Shown piece by piece: positions 6,562 to 50,997 of a stretch of DNA of 64,000 nt (the first letter of the stretch is position 1; each line of letters opens with the position of its first letter). The notes beneath the pieces were generated by a model. The model worked only from the letters and a program-made list of their open reading frames with translations. It was not told the origin of the DNA and did no database searches. The stretch is from Prevotella sp. tf2-5 (GTDB taxonomy: Bacteria > Bacteroidota > Bacteroidia > Bacteroidales > Bacteroidaceae). The stretch spans positions 124,001 through 188,000 of the forward strand of contig NZ_FOWK01000002.1 in assembly GCF_900115435.1 (NCBI RefSeq), given 5' to 3'. Position numbers and translations under genes: made by a program.

Positions 6562-6627
6562 TCAGTAAATTCACTGAATTTGGTGAGTAAATTCACTGAA
6601 TTTACTGAGTAAACACACTGAATTTAC
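6562..6627. repeat. 22-bp-pitch palindromic array, AGTAAATTCA type (locus 1, part 2)
   Basis: Three tandem 22-bp units start at 6562, 6584 and 6606. The middle unit carries the 10-bp arms AGTAAATTCA and TGAATTTACT separated by a single C, a perfect dyad centred on 6596. The first unit has the same arms over 9 bp, and the third keeps the right arm with a changed left arm (GTAAACACA). Confidence 0.85.
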
Positions 6628-6662
6628 TTTCATAGAAGATACTTCTGTCGGTCTTAATGCCT

Positions 6663-6838
6663 TGTGTATGGGTAGAAGGTTACTAGTGATGGGGTGTTAG
6701 TGCCTACCTTCGAGGGTGTTAGGTACCGCCTTCGAGGGAGAAAGGTTCCGCCTTTCAATCGTTTGCCTATAGCCAAACGACCGTGCGGCTCCAGCCAAAC
6801 AACTGAACGGCTATAGCCGAAAGCAAACCGCTCAAAAA
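6663..6838. repeat. 22-bp-pitch palindromic array, CCTTCGAGGG and AGCC/GGCT types (locus 1, part 3)
   Basis: Eight consecutive 22-bp steps start at 6663, 6685, 6707, 6729, 6751, 6773, 6795 and 6817. Neighbouring units are alike and distant ones are not: the first four share GGG-(t/a)g-..-AGGT, units at 6707 and 6729 begin CCTTCGAGGG, and units at 6773 and 6795 begin CCAAAC. Dyads repeat at the same pitch (GGCTCCAGCC, GGCTATAGCC; TACCT/AGGTA). The constant pitch with changing sequence is directly visible. Confidence 0.8.
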
Positions 6839-6903: not shown

Positions 6904-6984
6904 CCTTGTCACCGTTGCCGCTATGTTGTTACCGACAATCCACTGATAATCAAATAGTTTTGCAAGGCGGCAACGGTGACAAGG
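6904..6984 (-). repeat. 81-bp inverted-repeat module, copy 1
   Basis: Perfect 18-bp inverted arms lie at 6904-6921 and 6967-6984 (outer end CCTTGTCACC, inner end GTTGCCGC) around a 45-nt centre. Read on the minus strand, 40 nt of the left arm and centre (plus-strand 6943-6982) match 31814-31853 at 35 of 40 positions, so this is a dispersed repeat. No coding potential was seen. It lies 65 bp from the end of the 22-bp arrays. Confidence 0.8.
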
Positions 6985-30221: not shown

Positions 30222-31715
30222 ATGAGAAAGAATATATTAAACACTGCACTCCTGCTGCTCCTTGCCTTTGTGGCAGGAGCATGCAGCGACAGCGATACCA
30301 CCAAGACGGTGGATAATGGTCGCAGAAGTGGTGCCGGTACCATCCTGGAATTGCTGGATAATGAGGAGGAATCTCTCTCATCACTGAATTTTGCGATGGG
30401 TGTCGGTAATTATATAATAGGTGTAAACTGTGATGGTGACTGGACTGCCTCTGTAGATGCCGACTGGGTGACCTTGTCAAACTATGCAGGCTATGGATTC
30501 ATCAATAAGTTAAGCTATACCAAAATATCTGTTCCCAAGAATGAGGGAGCTGAGCGTACCGCTACGCTGACTATCTCTACTGGTAATCTGACAAAAACCC
30601 TGCTTATCACGCAGAAAGGTCCTGGCGCAGATCCGGACGATCCGTTTGAGACTTCTTATGAGTTGGTGGAGAATCTGAAGATGGGTTACAACCTTGGTAA
30701 TACCCTTGATGCCAACCCATGGGGCTCTTGGTGGGATCCTTCTACCAAGACCATCGCTGACTGGGAGACATCATGGGGTCAGCCTTTGACTACGCAGGAG
30801 ATCATCGATGCCATTGCGGCAAAGGGCTTCAACATTATTCGTATTCCTGTGACATGGTATCCTCACATGGATGCTCAGGACAATGTCAGTGCAGAGTGGA
30901 TGAACCGTGTTCAAGAAGTTGTTGACTATGTGCTGAAAGCAGGTTGCTATTGCATCCTTAACATTCAGCATGACAATGGTGCTGCCAATGGACGTACAGA
31001 CGGTGGCGCATGGCTCTATGCAGATATCGACGACTATCCCGCATTGACGGTCCGCTATCAGAAACTGTGGAAGCAGATTGCAGAGCATTTCAAGGACTAT
31101 GACGAGCATCTGATCTTCGAGTCGTTCAACGAGATCCTGAACAAGAGTTACTCATGGACTGCTCCTTCTTCAGCTACGGATGGTGCTTATCAGGCTATCA
31201 ATAAGTTGCAGCAGGACTTCGTGAATGTGGTTCGTGAGACTGGTGGTAACAACAAGTATCGTAACCTTGCTGTGACTACTTATTCTGCAACTGGTACTAA
31301 TGATGTTGCTCTTCAGGCTTTTGAACTGCCTGATGATCCTTCCAACAACCACCTCTATCTGTCTATACACTCTTACGATCCTTACAACTTCTGTAACTAC
31401 AATGCTGGTAAGAATCAGGATGGTTCGGAATATGATTATAACATCTACGTGTTCAATGAGGATTGCGAGGCTACCATCGATGGTGTGTTCGCTCGTGTCA
31501 GCAAGCGTGCTTCAGAGGTGGGTGTTCCATTCATCTTTGGTGAGTTCGGTGCTATCGACGAGAGTAAGAGCATGAACGAGCGCATCAAATATGCCAAGTA
31601 TCTCAAGACGAAGTTCCAGCAATATGGAACAGCGGGTCTCTGGTGGATGGGACTCTATAATCGTGAGGACGATGAATGGTATGAGGAAGAACTCGTTGAC
31701 GCACTCTTCCAGTAA
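30222..31715 (+). CDS. BACON-domain GH5 endoglycanase lipoprotein (probably GH5_4)
   Basis: A 497-residue surface lipoprotein (lipobox VAGAC). Residues ~40-140 form a BACON domain (SLSSLNFAMG to ITQKGPG) that spaces the enzyme from the membrane. The catalytic barrel opens GYNLGNTLDANPWGSWWDP and ETSWGQPLTTQEII, the GH5_4 pattern. The acid/base Glu is in FESFNE (about E304) and the nucleophile in FGEFGA (about E441); NIQHDNG supplies the conserved His. GH5_4 members cut beta-1,4-glucans, xyloglucan or glucomannan, so it may cleave the glucosyl part of glucomannan. Last gene of the SusCD block; a strong terminator follows. Confidence 0.9.
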   Translation: MRKNILNTALLLLLAFVAGACSDSDTTKTVDNGRRSGAGTILELLDNEEESLSSLNFAMGVGNYIIGVNCDGDWTASVDADWVTLSNYAGYGFINKLSYTKISVPKNEGAERTATLTISTGNLTKTLLITQKGPGADPDDPFETSYELVENLKMGYNLGNTLDANPWGSWWDPSTKTIADWETSWGQPLTTQEIIDAIAAKGFNIIRIPVTWYPHMDAQDNVSAEWMNRVQEVVDYVLKAGCYCILNIQHDNGAANGRTDGGAWLYADIDDYPALTVRYQKLWKQIAEHFKDYDEHLIFESFNEILNKSYSWTAPSSATDGAYQAINKLQQDFVNVVRETGGNNKYRNLAVTTYSATGTNDVALQAFELPDDPSNNHLYLSIHSYDPYNFCNYNAGKNQDGSEYDYNIYVFNEDCEATIDGVFARVSKRASEVGVPFIFGEFGAIDESKSMNERIKYAKYLKTKFQQYGTAGLWWMGLYNREDDEWYEEELVDALFQ

Positions 31716-31813: not shown

Positions 31814-31871
31814 TTGTTACCGTTGCTACCTTGCAAGACTATTTGATAATCAGGTGATTACAGGTGACAAG
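31814..31871 (+). repeat. inverted-repeat module, copy 2 (partly degenerate)
   Basis: Positions 31814-31853 match the minus strand of 6943-6982 at 35 of 40 bases, including the shared run ACCGTTGC and the core TATTTGAT. The right side is shortened: TGACAAGAA follows after a gap, so the long perfect arms of copy 1 are lost. Two GTTGCCGC pieces follow at 31882-31900. The gene-free stretch 31716-32368 holds the terminator, this module, the next array and a promoter. Confidence 0.7.
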
Positions 31872-31950
31872 AACGAAAAATCGTTGCCGCTCGTTGCCGC
31901 TCAATGCTGTTTTTGCCCCTAAAATGAGGTTAAAACCGTGTTAAAAACTG

Positions 31951-32192
31951 ATTCCTATTTGTCTTTTGGAAGTGAGAAGGTACTCCGATCGATTATTCCA
32001 GGCATTGGAATCAACCATTCCAGGCATTGGAATTTGATATCCGAAACTAGGGGATACTTTATTCCATGCCATGGAACAAGTTGTTCCACCCCATGGAACA
32101 AAATGTTCCACCCTATGGAACAAACAGGCAGGTGCCGCCTGCTGCCCTCGATGGTAGTACCTGCTGTTCTCGAAGGGTAATACTTTCTTAAC
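31951..32192. repeat. 22-bp-pitch palindromic array, TTCCA/TGGAA type (locus 2)
   Basis: Six contiguous units start at 31995, 32017, 32039, 32061, 32083 and 32105, each with 6-bp arms and a 5-nt loop (positions 1-6 and 12-17). Units one and two read ATTCCA/TGGAAT, units five and six GTTCCA/TGGAAC, and unit three swaps another pair, so arm bases change together. The grid extends to degenerate units at 31951 and 31973 and into CCTTCGA-type units read on the minus strand (about 32127-32180). Confidence 0.85.
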
Positions 32193-32237
32193 AATTTCTT
32201 GGTATATTTTACCACGACGGATAATTTTGCGGACAAA

Positions 32238-32368: not shown

Positions 32369-33949
32369 ATGAAAAAATTATTTACTCTGATGGTAATGGT
32401 ACTTGTTGCACTGGGCGCACAAGCCAAGAAGCAGCTCGATCTAACCAATCCCAACTGGGTGTGGGGTTGCACCTACGATGCCGCCACCCAAACTATCTCT
32501 TACACCGCCGACGGCTGGGGCGGCTGTGGCTGGACGCTGACAGGCTTCGACAAGACTGCCGGCACTGCCATTGACCCCTACTCAACCGAGGGTTTCGACT
32601 ATGTGGTCATCAAGATTGAGAAGAGCGAGCTGAAGACGGCTATCAACATAAACTATACCGACGGTGCGACCACCAATGGCAAGACGGGCGACGAGTTCGG
32701 ACTCCAGGATTTCGACGCCTCGCAGACCGCCTTCGAGCCCGGCACGACGCTTTTGACCGTGAAGCTGGTCAAGAACAAGCCCTATCTGCTGGGTCTTAAC
32801 ATTCAGAACCTCACATGGCAGGCTGCTGCCCCCAATAACCCCGCCGGCACCGTTGTGCTGAAGGATGCCTATCTGGCTACCGAGGCGGAGTATCAGGAGG
32901 CGGTCGAGGAAGACAAGAACAAACCCAAGGACCCAACCGTCGATATTGACATCAAGAACTGGGGCTGGGGCTGGAGTGCCACAGGTACTGTCGACGGCGA
33001 TGCCGTTAACGTGGCCATTACGGGTTCTGGCGGTGCCTACTCTACAGGTTTCCAGCCCGCTGTCGACTGGTCGAACTACAAGTATGCCATTGCTGTATTG
33101 ACCAGCGTCAAGGGTGGCGAAGGTGGCTATCTGAACCTCGGTGTCAAGGGCGCCAACAACGAAACCGCAGCCAGCGAGAGCGCTGCCCTCGTCGAAAACC
33201 AGGAGCAGTTCATCTATGTTGATCTCAGCGCTAATGCCGCCATTGCTTCTGCCGTGGCACAGGTATGGCTGCAGGGCGAAAATGGTGTGGAGGCTAAGTT
33301 CACCCGCCTGTACCTTGCCGATGAACTGCCCGCTGTAGCTCCCGCTAGTACTTCCACTACTCTGATTGACTATCCTACAAAGGAGGATGGTATAACAGTA
33401 AGCGGTACATCTACTTTGAATGTAACGGTAAAGATTCACACTAATACTGATGCTGTTAAGGCTATTCAGTTTAAGAATGGTTATACATCAGATGGTAAAA
33501 TCAACGCTAACTGGGCTTCGCTTACGGTAGATGGTGGTTTCAAGAAAGGTGATAAGATAGAGATTGCTGGTGTGCTCAATAACTCTGACGCAAACAAGCA
33601 GGCTGCTGTAACACTGTTTGTGGGAGCTCAAGGTGAGGCTGCAACAGACCTCTGGAAATCAGATTTGTTTATTAATGGTCGTCTTGTTGCTGATGATCCT
33701 ACAGTACAGACTTACACTCTTGAGGCTGACTATCCCGAACTGAAACTGGGTCGTGCTAATGGTTTGACCAATGCAACAGGTACTTGGGTAACTTATCTGA
33801 AGATCATTCGTGAGAGTGCTACTGGCATTCAGGAGATTCCTGTTAAGGTGATCGCCAACGATGTTATTTACAACCTCGCTGGTCAGAAGGTGAACGAGAA
33901 CTACAAGGGTATCGTTATCAAGAACGGTAAGAAATACATTCAGAAGTGA
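32369..33949 (+). CDS. secreted three-domain carbohydrate-binding-like protein with sorting-type C-terminus
   Basis: A 526-residue protein with signal peptide MKKLFTLMVMVLVALGAQA. Three beta-rich segments follow: ~20-175 (LTNPNWVWGCTYDA, GWGGCGWTL), ~190-315 (IKNWGWGWSATG, VDWSNYKYAIAVL) and ~330-490 (GITVSGTSTLNVTVKIHTNTDAVKAIQF to YLKIIRE). They carry solvent-type Trp clusters that suggest glycan binding, but no catalytic motif. The tail VIYNLAGQKVNENYKGIVI then KNGKKYIQK resembles the conserved C-terminus of many Prevotella secreted proteins. Base composition changes near codon 325: 35 of 60 bases are G/C at 32941-33000 but 25 of 60 at 33481-33540. Exact function unknown. Confidence 0.75.
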   Translation: MKKLFTLMVMVLVALGAQAKKQLDLTNPNWVWGCTYDAATQTISYTADGWGGCGWTLTGFDKTAGTAIDPYSTEGFDYVVIKIEKSELKTAININYTDGATTNGKTGDEFGLQDFDASQTAFEPGTTLLTVKLVKNKPYLLGLNIQNLTWQAAAPNNPAGTVVLKDAYLATEAEYQEAVEEDKNKPKDPTVDIDIKNWGWGWSATGTVDGDAVNVAITGSGGAYSTGFQPAVDWSNYKYAIAVLTSVKGGEGGYLNLGVKGANNETAASESAALVENQEQFIYVDLSANAAIASAVAQVWLQGENGVEAKFTRLYLADELPAVAPASTSTTLIDYPTKEDGITVSGTSTLNVTVKIHTNTDAVKAIQFKNGYTSDGKINANWASLTVDGGFKKGDKIEIAGVLNNSDANKQAAVTLFVGAQGEAATDLWKSDLFINGRLVADDPTVQTYTLEADYPELKLGRANGLTNATGTWVTYLKIIRESATGIQEIPVKVIANDVIYNLAGQKVNENYKGIVIKNGKKYIQK

Positions 33950-48962: not shown

Positions 48963-50960
48963 ATGGTTATGGAGATATATAGTTATTCATTTCTAATCCT
49001 TCTGCTGCCAGCGCTTTCGTTTGTGATACTTGCGTTGGCTGGTATGAAGATGTCACATAAGACCGCTGGTCTTATAGGTACTACATCTTTGGGACTGGTA
49101 ACGGTATTGTCTTATATGACGGCATTCGCTTATTTTAGTGCGGACCGTCTTGCTAATGGTACCTTTGCTACCATCGTTCCCTACAACTTCACCTGGCTGC
49201 CTTTGGGTAACCTGCATTTTGACATGGGTATCCTGTTGGATCCTATCTCAGTGATGATGCTTATCGTCATCAGCACGGTGTCGTTCATGGTACATATTTA
49301 CTCTTTCGGCTATATGCATGGTGAGAAGGGTTTCCAGCGTTACTACGCCTTCCTCTCGCTGTTCACGATGTCTATGCTCGGACTCGTACTTGCCACGAAT
49401 ATCTTCCAGATGTATACGTTCTGGGAGTTGGTAGGTGTGTCATCTTACTTGCTGATTGGTTTCTACTATCCTTTGAAGCCAGCTATTGCCGCTTCTAAGA
49501 AGGCATTCATCGTGACTCGTTTCGCTGATATGTTCTTCCTTATTGGTATCCTGCTCTTCGGTTACTATACAGACTCATTCAGTTTCTCCTTTGCTGGAGA
49601 TATCGTGATGGGACAAGGCACTACACCGTTTATCGAGGGTAATGCTGCGAAGGCAATGGCAGCAGGAGCGTTTATCCTGCCTACCGCTCTGGTACTGATG
49701 TTCATCGGTGGTGCCGGTAAGAGTGCGATGTTCCCGTTGCATATCTGGTTGCCTGATGCCATGGAGGGTCCAACTCCTGTATCTGCATTGATCCATGCTG
49801 CCACGATGGTGGTCGCTGGTGTGTTCCAGATTGCCCGTATGTTCCCTTTGTGGGTGGAGTATGCACAGCCTCAAATGAGTATTGTGGTATGGGTCGGTGT
49901 CTTCACCGCCTTCTATGCCGCTGCTGTTGCTTGTGCCCAGAGTGATATCAAGCGTGTACTTGCTTTCTCCACCATCTCGCAGATTGCTTTTATGATGGTG
50001 GCACTGGGTGTTTCTCTTCCTGGTCATGAGGCTGTCCTTGACAACCATGCACAATTAGGTTTCATGGCAGGTATGTTCCATTTGTTCACCCATGCCATGT
50101 TCAAGGCTTGTCTGTTCTTGGGCGCGGGATGTATTATCCACGCAGTTCATTCTAATGAGATGGCGATGATGGGTGGCTTGCGTAAGTATATGCCGATAAC
50201 GAATATCACGTTCTTGATCTCTTGTTTCGCTATCGCAGGTATTCCTTTCTTCTCTGGCTTTAGTTCGAAGGATGAGATTATCACAGCGTGTTTCGCCTAT
50301 AGTCCTGTCGTAGGATGGATCATGACGGGTATTGCAGCTATGACGGCTTTCTATATGTTCCGCCTGTACTACGGTATATTCTGGGGTACGGAGAACAAGG
50401 AGGCACATGCGCATCATACACCTCATGAGGCTCCTGCTACGATGACTATTCCTCTGATTGTGCTTTGTGTAATTACGATGGGAGTAGGTATTTATACTAC
50501 TATCGCAGGTTTCGCAGGGTGGGGCGGCTCTTTCGGTCAGTTTGTATCTGCCGCAGGAACCAACTATACCATTCATTTCGATACACAGATCGCATTGACC
50601 TCTACCGTTATCGCGATTCTGAGTATCTGTCTTGCCACCTATATCTATAAAGGAGAGAGCCAGCCGATTGCCGACCGTCTGTATAAACAGTTCCCGCGTC
50701 TGCATCAGGCAGCCTATAAGCGTTTCTATCAGGATGAGATCTGGCAGTATGTCACTCACCGTATTATCTTCCGTTGTATCTCCAAGCCTGTTGCTTGGTT
50801 CGACCGTCATGTCGTTGACGGCACCTTCAACTTTATGGCATGGGGAGCTAATGAGGCAGGTGAGTCGTTGCGTCCTTGGCAGAGTGGTGATGTTCGTCAG
50901 TATGCCGTATGGTTCCTGACAGGCACTGTTGCATTAACATTAATACTATTGGCACTATAA
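48963..50960 (+). CDS. nuoL: NADH-quinone oxidoreductase subunit L
   Basis: A 665-residue antiporter-like proton-pumping subunit with about 16 helices. FWELVGVSSYLLIGFYYPLKPA, IGGAGKSAMFPLHIWLPDAMEGPTPVSALIHAATMVVAGV and FHLFTHAMFKACLFLGAGCIIH are signatures. The C-terminus after about residue 520 contains the amphipathic lateral-helix region. ATG 48963 directly abuts nuoK; Met3 is an alternative start. Confidence 0.95.
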   Translation: MVMEIYSYSFLILLLPALSFVILALAGMKMSHKTAGLIGTTSLGLVTVLSYMTAFAYFSADRLANGTFATIVPYNFTWLPLGNLHFDMGILLDPISVMMLIVISTVSFMVHIYSFGYMHGEKGFQRYYAFLSLFTMSMLGLVLATNIFQMYTFWELVGVSSYLLIGFYYPLKPAIAASKKAFIVTRFADMFFLIGILLFGYYTDSFSFSFAGDIVMGQGTTPFIEGNAAKAMAAGAFILPTALVLMFIGGAGKSAMFPLHIWLPDAMEGPTPVSALIHAATMVVAGVFQIARMFPLWVEYAQPQMSIVVWVGVFTAFYAAAVACAQSDIKRVLAFSTISQIAFMMVALGVSLPGHEAVLDNHAQLGFMAGMFHLFTHAMFKACLFLGAGCIIHAVHSNEMAMMGGLRKYMPITNITFLISCFAIAGIPFFSGFSSKDEIITACFAYSPVVGWIMTGIAAMTAFYMFRLYYGIFWGTENKEAHAHHTPHEAPATMTIPLIVLCVITMGVGIYTTIAGFAGWGGSFGQFVSAAGTNYTIHFDTQIALTSTVIAILSICLATYIYKGESQPIADRLYKQFPRLHQAAYKRFYQDEIWQYVTHRIIFRCISKPVAWFDRHVVDGTFNFMAWGANEAGESLRPWQSGDVRQYAVWFLTGTVALTLILLAL

Positions 50961-50997
50961 TACTATAGGTACTATAGACACTATAGGAACTATATTA
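50953..50997. repeat. 9-bp ACTATAG tandem repeat after nuoL
   Basis: Five 9-bp steps start at 50953, 50962, 50971, 50980 and 50989: three carry ACTATAG, the outer two ACTATA. Same unit family as the array after nuoH. The first unit includes the nuoL stop. Confidence 0.8.

Follow-up and report, generated by a model that had tools for sequence, protein, structure and literature searches.

A dispersed intergenic mosaic repeat with an alternating 11-bp half-site lattice in a Prevotella-like genome

Plasmid iterons and the tandem operators of dimeric HTH regulators place half-sites at intervals of one helical turn and operators at intervals of two, on the same face of the helix. REP elements measure 20–40 bp, carry tags and are associated with RAYT proteins. 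Mosaic repeats of several further kinds occupy bacterial intergenic regions. The BrickBuilt MITE of Porphyromonas gingivalis is, like the element reported here, a dispersed intergenic combination of short tandem repeats and flanking modules in the Bacteroidales and shares with it predicted stem-loops; the accessible part of its description gives a 23-nt period, repeat numbers from 1 to 22.8 in each element, and a leader and a tail with IS5-like terminal inverted repeats (PMC4596501). The neisserial intergenic mosaic elements with dRS3 are likewise mosaic short-repeat arrays with 6-bp inverted arms, in which 20-bp repeats, ATTCCC(N8)GGGAAT, are combined with RS elements of 30–160 bp, and one dRS3 type serves as a phage integration target, as far as the accessible text of the source goes (PMC3898611). 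The E. coli BIME-2/REP elements are also palindromic mosaic elements between genes (PMC6379681, PMC3733652). According to the portion of the report available, gyrase cleavage is enriched at BIME-2 elements, and the E. coli gyrase motif is symmetric, ~130 bp long and of 10.75-bp GC periodicity (PMC6379681). Gyrase binding is a possible parallel.

The array and its composite element

The window, that is, the whole 64,000-nt stretch analysed, contains six contiguous 22-bp units at 31995–32126, each consisting of a 6-bp arm, a 5-nt core, a second 6-bp arm and a 5-nt linker, in agreement with a sequence-only reading of this DNA. The base differences listed in that reading were likewise present: the outer pair is A:T in unit 1 (31995–32016; ATTCCA-GGCAT-TGGAAT, linker CAACC) and unit 2 (32017–32038; same arms and core, linker TTGAT), an A/C mismatch in unit 4 and G:C in units 5 and 6, and in unit 3 (32039–32060; ATCCGA-AACTA-GGGGAT) C:G replaces T:A at pair 3:15. 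Units 4–6 (32061–32126) form a three-unit RTTCCA-N5-TGGAAY block. Unit 3 is of a different class in the same register; it retains the outer A:T, and four of its six pairs are formed, two being broken (G/G and A/G). Units of this other class adjoin the TTCCA block also in copies L040, L044 and L051 (G and L numbers denote sampled genomes and loci). An in-phase unit of a third class follows at 32127–32148 (GGCAGG-TGCCG-CCTGCT) and resembles the GAAGG-TGCCR-CCTTC units flanking other arrays. The pattern TTCCA-N(3-9)-TGGAA was found six times in the window, five of them within the array, against 0.78 expected, and none of 100 shuffles reached six; self-similarity of the window peaked at lag 22 (88-bp windows, lags 8–59 scanned).

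The array is flanked by an ORF that ends at 31715 and by eye looks like that of a secreted glycosidase, and by an ORF that starts at 32369 and had no match in a Pfam search. Two short ORFs on opposite strands, called by our long-ORF heuristic, span the array, and we take them for spurious. TAnnTTTG motifs, presumably the Bacteroides promoter element, are present at 32222 and 32264, ~100–140 bp past the array. Rfam searches gave no match at gathering score anywhere in the window, and a tRNA search of the window found none.

The array is part of a composite intergenic element with dispersed copies. Module A, of ~90 bp (31814–31904; GTTACCGTTGC...GTTGCCGCTC), recurs at other array loci, with 82–90% matches at L037, L040, L042, L044, L048 and others. 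The whole element was assigned to 31814–32140, its extent being the part alignable at 82% identity over 331 bp with another copy in the own genome (G000:C9, L040). In this genome (3.51 Mb, 23 contigs), TTCCA-N5-TGGAA occurs at 47 places compared with 9 for the reversed control pattern, and the chained pattern gave 21 forward and 18 reverse matches compared with 0 for its reversed control.

Alignment of the copies by 22-bp unit revealed a recurring order in which module A is followed by ATTCCA-GGCAT-like units, next by one ATCC-GGAT unit and by GTTCCA units (three or four as a rule), and then by GAAGG-TGCCR-CCTTC-like units, some copies being without one or other component; the register continues from one palindrome class into the next. 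The TTCC block comprised three units in 7/7 fetched copies of G056, three or six in 5/5 copies of G142, three or four in eight of nine own-genome loci (0 in the ninth) and one to four across seven loci of G035. A second window array of like architecture, of the TAAATT-cactg-AATTTA class, is located at 6564–6629, and its region has 93–98% copies (174–207 bp) elsewhere in the own genome.

Three further repeats of the window were recorded. Soon after the 6564 array, more tandem stretches of 22-bp period and different sequence (GGGTGTTAGGTACCACCTTCGA; CTATAGCCAAACAACCGAACGG) occupy 6692–6818. A perfect 18-bp inverted repeat (CCTTGTCACCGTTGCCGC) at 6904–6921 and 6967–6984, with 45 bases between, belongs to a dispersed module also found near arrays (31814–31904, L037, L040, L044). 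At an ORF end, 50941–50994 holds 3.1 copies of a TA-rich 17-bp tandem repeat, TAATACTATAGGAACTA.

Half-site classes and the 11-bp comb across genomes

Half-sites alternate along the arrays: they face in opposite orientations at distances of 11, 33 and 55 and in the same orientation at 22 and 44. Secondary lags one base off (10, 12, 21 and 23) also appeared in the orientation count and were put down to overlapping half-site patterns. The half-site sequence varies by species, and different classes share a single register inside one array. Genome G117 uses CAATAG/CAAAAG around a TGGCA core and also TTCCA around a GGGGC core; G061 uses CAAWTT with core CGCCC; and locus L116 of Prevotella sp. RGIG3792 uses GTTYCY. 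Within arrays of G035, G056 and G117, where classes mix, the arms were no more alike than the cores.

In G061, the CAAWWT-N5-AWWTTG pattern matched 295 sites compared with 2 for the reversed pattern, so that half-sites number in the hundreds in the richest genome sampled. Among the 100 sites listed of these 295, all 49 close spacings were multiples of 22, and adjacent half-sites in this genome favour different variants. From the same 100 places, 40 of 51 clusters were fetched; left out were three single hits outside arrays by eye, five clusters already in the set and the last three. Chains of the CAAWWT type were found in 26/149 genus genomes and those of the AAGTGSCACTT type in 19/149, many of these genomes having one or two matches, near control level; in one chain-pattern survey the control matches of G116 exceeded the true ones. 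The chained TTCCA pattern was present in 9/150 genus genomes including the own, several with only one or two matches, and its control gave one match in one other genome. Among 149 genomes of the order, the TTCCA double-unit pattern occurred in one, the own genome.

The spacing was also measured by a sequence-blind procedure, in which palindrome centres were called from arms at 3–8 bases from a central base and the distances between centres were counted, G000 being represented by the window together with 20 sampled stretches of 20 kb, and G117 by 20 stretches. In intergenic DNA of G117, the count was 8 to 21 at every multiple of 11 from lag 11 to lag 99, with a mean of 13.9 compared with 2.2 at other lags. 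The corresponding counts in G000 were 23 at lag 11, 14 at lag 22 and 2 to 6 thereafter (mean 7.1 compared with 2.5). In called-coding DNA of G000, multiples of 11 were raised (mean 20.7 compared with 12.8 at other lags) when the window and L078 were included, two sources whose arrays sit under short accepted ORFs; with these two removed, the coding comb was absent (11.3 vs 10.5 for ORFs of at least 90 aa, 9.9 vs 9.7 for at least 200 aa), as it was in coding DNA of G117 (12.1 vs 11.2). A scan of periods 17–33 at the lowest threshold counted 7 (G000) and 12 (G117) intergenic arrays at period 22, 3 and 8 at period 33 and 0 or 1 at any other period, and coding DNA gave 0 to 3 arrays at every period. 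Genes were called by the long-ORF heuristic throughout; array thresholds of 12, 15 and 18 were compared and later analyses used 10 to 12. Loci L001–L033, duplicates of other stretches, were left out of the statistics that followed the initial unit alignment.

Twenty further genus genomes, sampled with one stretch each (two very short, one skipped), gave a comb of 9.5 on and 3.5 off the multiples of 11. In other families of the order (18 genomes, 16 long enough) the comb was weak (5.3 on, 4.0 off), and 4.8 kb of intergenic DNA from a pair of genomes that belong to the family but not to the genus showed none (0.20 vs 0.15). Loci shorter than 600 bp (L139, L165 and L174) were skipped in this survey. 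Genome G016 had no array in six sampled 20-kb stretches and one weak array in L184. A neighbouring gene led to named relatives, which are MAGs of Prevotella or Prevotellaceae and mostly of rumen origin.

Pairing covariation and arm conservation

The sequence-only reading had interpreted the changes on both arms as compensatory. This interpretation did not hold, and the outcome which that reading had named as its refutation, a lack of covariation across many aligned copies, is the one observed. In a set of 37 distinct TTCC/GGAA units, drawn from five sources, complementarity matched that of shuffled partners, with a covariation score of 0.060 compared with 0.058 and 92.3% paired cells in either case, four of the six pairs being invariant in this set because the search pattern fixed them. 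The outer pair of TTCCA units was complementary in 64/95 compared with 61.2 expected (P 0.21) and, in an earlier overlapping set, in 60/90 compared with 55.6 (P 0.08), related copies being non-independent in both sets. Half-changed outer pairs were common (A/C 15/95, G/T 8/95) and A:T doubles rare (4/95). Two pairs exceeded shuffles among the 95 units: pair 6:12 (P 0.031) is almost invariant (90/95 A:T), and pair 7:11 (P < 0.001), a core position, is complementary in only 18/95 units, which had been oriented by core composition. On the explanation preferred below, the A/G and T/C differences listed in the sequence-only reading are tolerated degeneracy of the half-site RTTCCA, not compensatory changes.

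Leave-one-pair-out tests with pooled within-array shuffles, in which related copies are non-independent, were significant at all six offsets, and in mosaic arrays entire arm classes were found to switch jointly from one unit to another. The pooled signal vanished when units, with related copies again non-independent, were compared only within a class (no offset significant at two or fewer differences, P 0.14–0.97). Over 18 within-class tests, offset 3 gave P 0.03 in one of its three settings and 0.054 in another, and offset 7 leaned the opposite way (P 0.96–0.98). The leave-one-out tests dropped arrays of one or two units, the weaker of the arrays lying under ORFs, and any unit that formed fewer than 4/5 other pairs; L133 and L134, copies of L036, entered them, identical arrays being removed by start sequence. 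L042, which lies inside L078, was excluded from the leave-one-out, within-class, GC, spacing/arm-likeness and 95-unit analyses.

In G061, where half-site positions 4 and 5 vary freely, complementary variants were rarer than chance across the core, at 24/100 compared with 36.4 among the 100 sites listed of 295 (P 0.0025) and 23/102 compared with 37.0 in another set (P 0.0004), and also across the linker (15/73 compared with 26.7, P 0.0008). Covarying base pairs were not found except at the outermost pair of G117, which does covary (15/22 compared with 8.6, P 0.0008).

Orthologous arrays revealed conservation of the arms at the window locus. The downstream gene (32369–33949) had matches in only 2/299 genus genomes, the own and one partial, so that no orthologous arrays were obtained through it. 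In Prevotella sp. UBA2755 (L123), synteny extends over 9.3 kb at 83.8% identity and includes the window array. Changes affected 8/30 core and 8/30 linker positions, together 16/60, compared with 4/72 positions of the arms (P 0.001). The three-unit block may be shifted by one unit in this pair, which would inflate core differences; units 1–3 were therefore checked separately and gave 3/36 in arms compared with 9/30 in the rest (P 0.03). Unit 1 is unchanged in L123, unit 2 has two right-arm changes, both uncompensated, and in none of the four arm changes was the partner changed. In RGIG3792 the same upstream gene ends in a terminator-like hairpin, and just past it lies an array of a different class (L116, 358–490) with GTTTCC, GTTTCT and GTTCCC arms, the variants being fully paired in 4/5 GTTYCY units. 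L114 and L117 have no array at this place. Between the orthologs L042 and L048, units were gained, lost and replaced.

One separate observation concerns the orthologous four-unit arrays L036 (1999–2081) and L050 (2070–2152), where most linkers resemble AAAGT in one array and ACTTT in its counterpart at the same core orientation, as though linkers had been flipped between arms.

Candidate explanations and comparison with known systems

Half-site identity, alternation, the 11-bp phase and partly block size are kept, and pairing, core sequence and core orientation are not, the trace to be expected of a two-fold symmetric protein that reads one half-site in each helical turn. Because half-sites alternate, one per 11 bp, operators fall on the same helix face. 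We lean, by a modest preference, towards a dispersed intergenic mosaic repeat, ~330 bp long here in a Prevotella-like genome, with a half-site lattice to which a putative symmetric protein would bind along a single helix face; the pattern looks more like a protein landing platform than a hairpin. The working part would be the 6-bp half-sites, each 22-bp unit representing a 17-bp two-fold operator. These half-sites would be read by a DNA-binding protein that acts as a dimer, or by a set of related proteins, with multimerisation along one face that might give a nucleoprotein patch between transcription units. Since several arm classes occur in one genome, a single sequence-specific protein would be an insufficient explanation. 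The unit turnover between L042 and L048, the variable block size in G035 and the own genome, the covarying outer pair of G117, the near-absence of arrays in genomes such as G016, and arms no more alike than cores in G035, G056 and G117 also count against this reading. Beyond this, and as a speculation we regard as unlikely, the lattice could be a bacterial chromatin-like addressing system, in which a fast-diverging protein family polymerising along DNA reads intergenic half-sites; the half-site sequence differs between species at constant spacing, as if protein and sites co-evolved.

The main rival, which we consider tenable if on balance doubtful, is a selfish or neutral MITE-like composite with no host function, in which slippage and recombination between arms would both enlarge the array and keep its units alike, the 22-bp register being that of recombination. 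The dispersed 82% and 93–98% copies, the unit turnover between L042 and L048, the species-specific high-copy classes and the patchy presence would all be expected of such an element; the slower change of arms than of cores and linkers at the orthologous locus, the three-unit block in all seven fetched G056 copies and a register preserved across unrelated classes speak against it. Selection on base pairing itself, in DNA cruciforms or RNA hairpins, is a very improbable reading that the results already disfavour. Folding is strong on both strands (RNA z −5.5 and −5.4; DNA z −6.1), a result to be expected of an inverted repeat, and the G117 outer pair, the joint change of arm classes and the paired GTTYCY variants of L116 point the same way. 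Set against these are the 37 units, with one of 18 within-class tests at P 0.03, the anti-covariation in G061 and the uncompensated changes in L123; moreover, hairpins with flexible linkers would presumably need no rigid 11-bp phase. Of the earlier proposal that selection keeps pairing or two-fold symmetric binding, the symmetry is supported by the conserved arms and the multi-genome lattice, and compensatory pairing is not supported.

Use of the lattice as a phased platform by gyrase or another DNA-wrapping protein, by analogy with gyrase on some E. coli BIME-2 elements, appears improbable. A gyrase-type wrapping site would have a GC periodicity of 10.5–11 bp over ~130 bp. In G117 arrays, AT-rich arms (GC 0.34) alternate every 11 bp with GC-rich cores (0.67) and linkers (0.57), whereas in the window's class GC oscillates at 22 bp (core/linker 0.55/0.35 in G000 and 0.77/0.33 in G056) and the three-unit block, at 66 bp, is shorter than the gyrase motif. 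Gene context is similarly divided: G061 arrays lean to convergent gene ends (13/39 defined contexts, 40 examined, compared with 7/51 background gaps, P 0.04; 5/9 arrays in its sampled stretches), but the bias is slight in G117 (3/13 array gaps, 17/110 overall) and absent in G000 (1/8 array gaps, 15/86 overall).

Mobilisation as REP elements by a RAYT (Y1 tyrosine transposase) was also considered and rejected as extremely unlikely. PF01797 proteins are present in 12/18 genus genomes searched, the own included, and the units are short intergenic palindromes. Yet only 2/10 fetched Y1-transposase neighbourhoods contain an array, both at the weak threshold, no PF01797 protein was found in the array-rich G035 and G056 (the latter only 62% complete), the tags GTAG or CGTC are absent on both strands from the window array and from 82 units of the TTCC class, and the accessible description of these elements contains no rigid 22-bp lattice (PMC3733652).

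Hairpins are a frequent explanation of palindromic repeats between genes; in the present case, helical phase and the identity of the half-sites have been retained and base pairing has not. A DNA-bound protein lattice, the reading we prefer, would be directly testable, and G061-like genomes, with 295 sites compared with 2 for the control, supply enough of them. We know of no 11-bp half-site lattice in BIME-2/REP elements. Tandem HTH operators and iterons differ in that the sites here are dispersed (295 in G061) and of several half-site classes. Literature searches on such repeats and on the named parallels brought up no account of a comparable Prevotella lattice in titles, the opening lines of abstracts and text passages, from a collection with few subscription papers. 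The period of 22 bp departs from the 23-nt tandem direct repeat of BrickBuilt, whose accessible description does not include an 11-bp alternation or an in-register change of class (PMC4596501). ATTCCC(N8)GGGAAT of dRS3 resembles ATTCCA(N5)TGGAAT; however, the arms here are RTTCCA, the spacer is N5 and the units form a contiguous 22-bp lattice instead of lying between RS elements, a contiguous helical lattice not being described in the available part of that source (PMC3898611). What distinguishes the present element from the known mosaic repeats is its lattice, rigid and alternating at 11 bp, with half-sites that differ from species to species.
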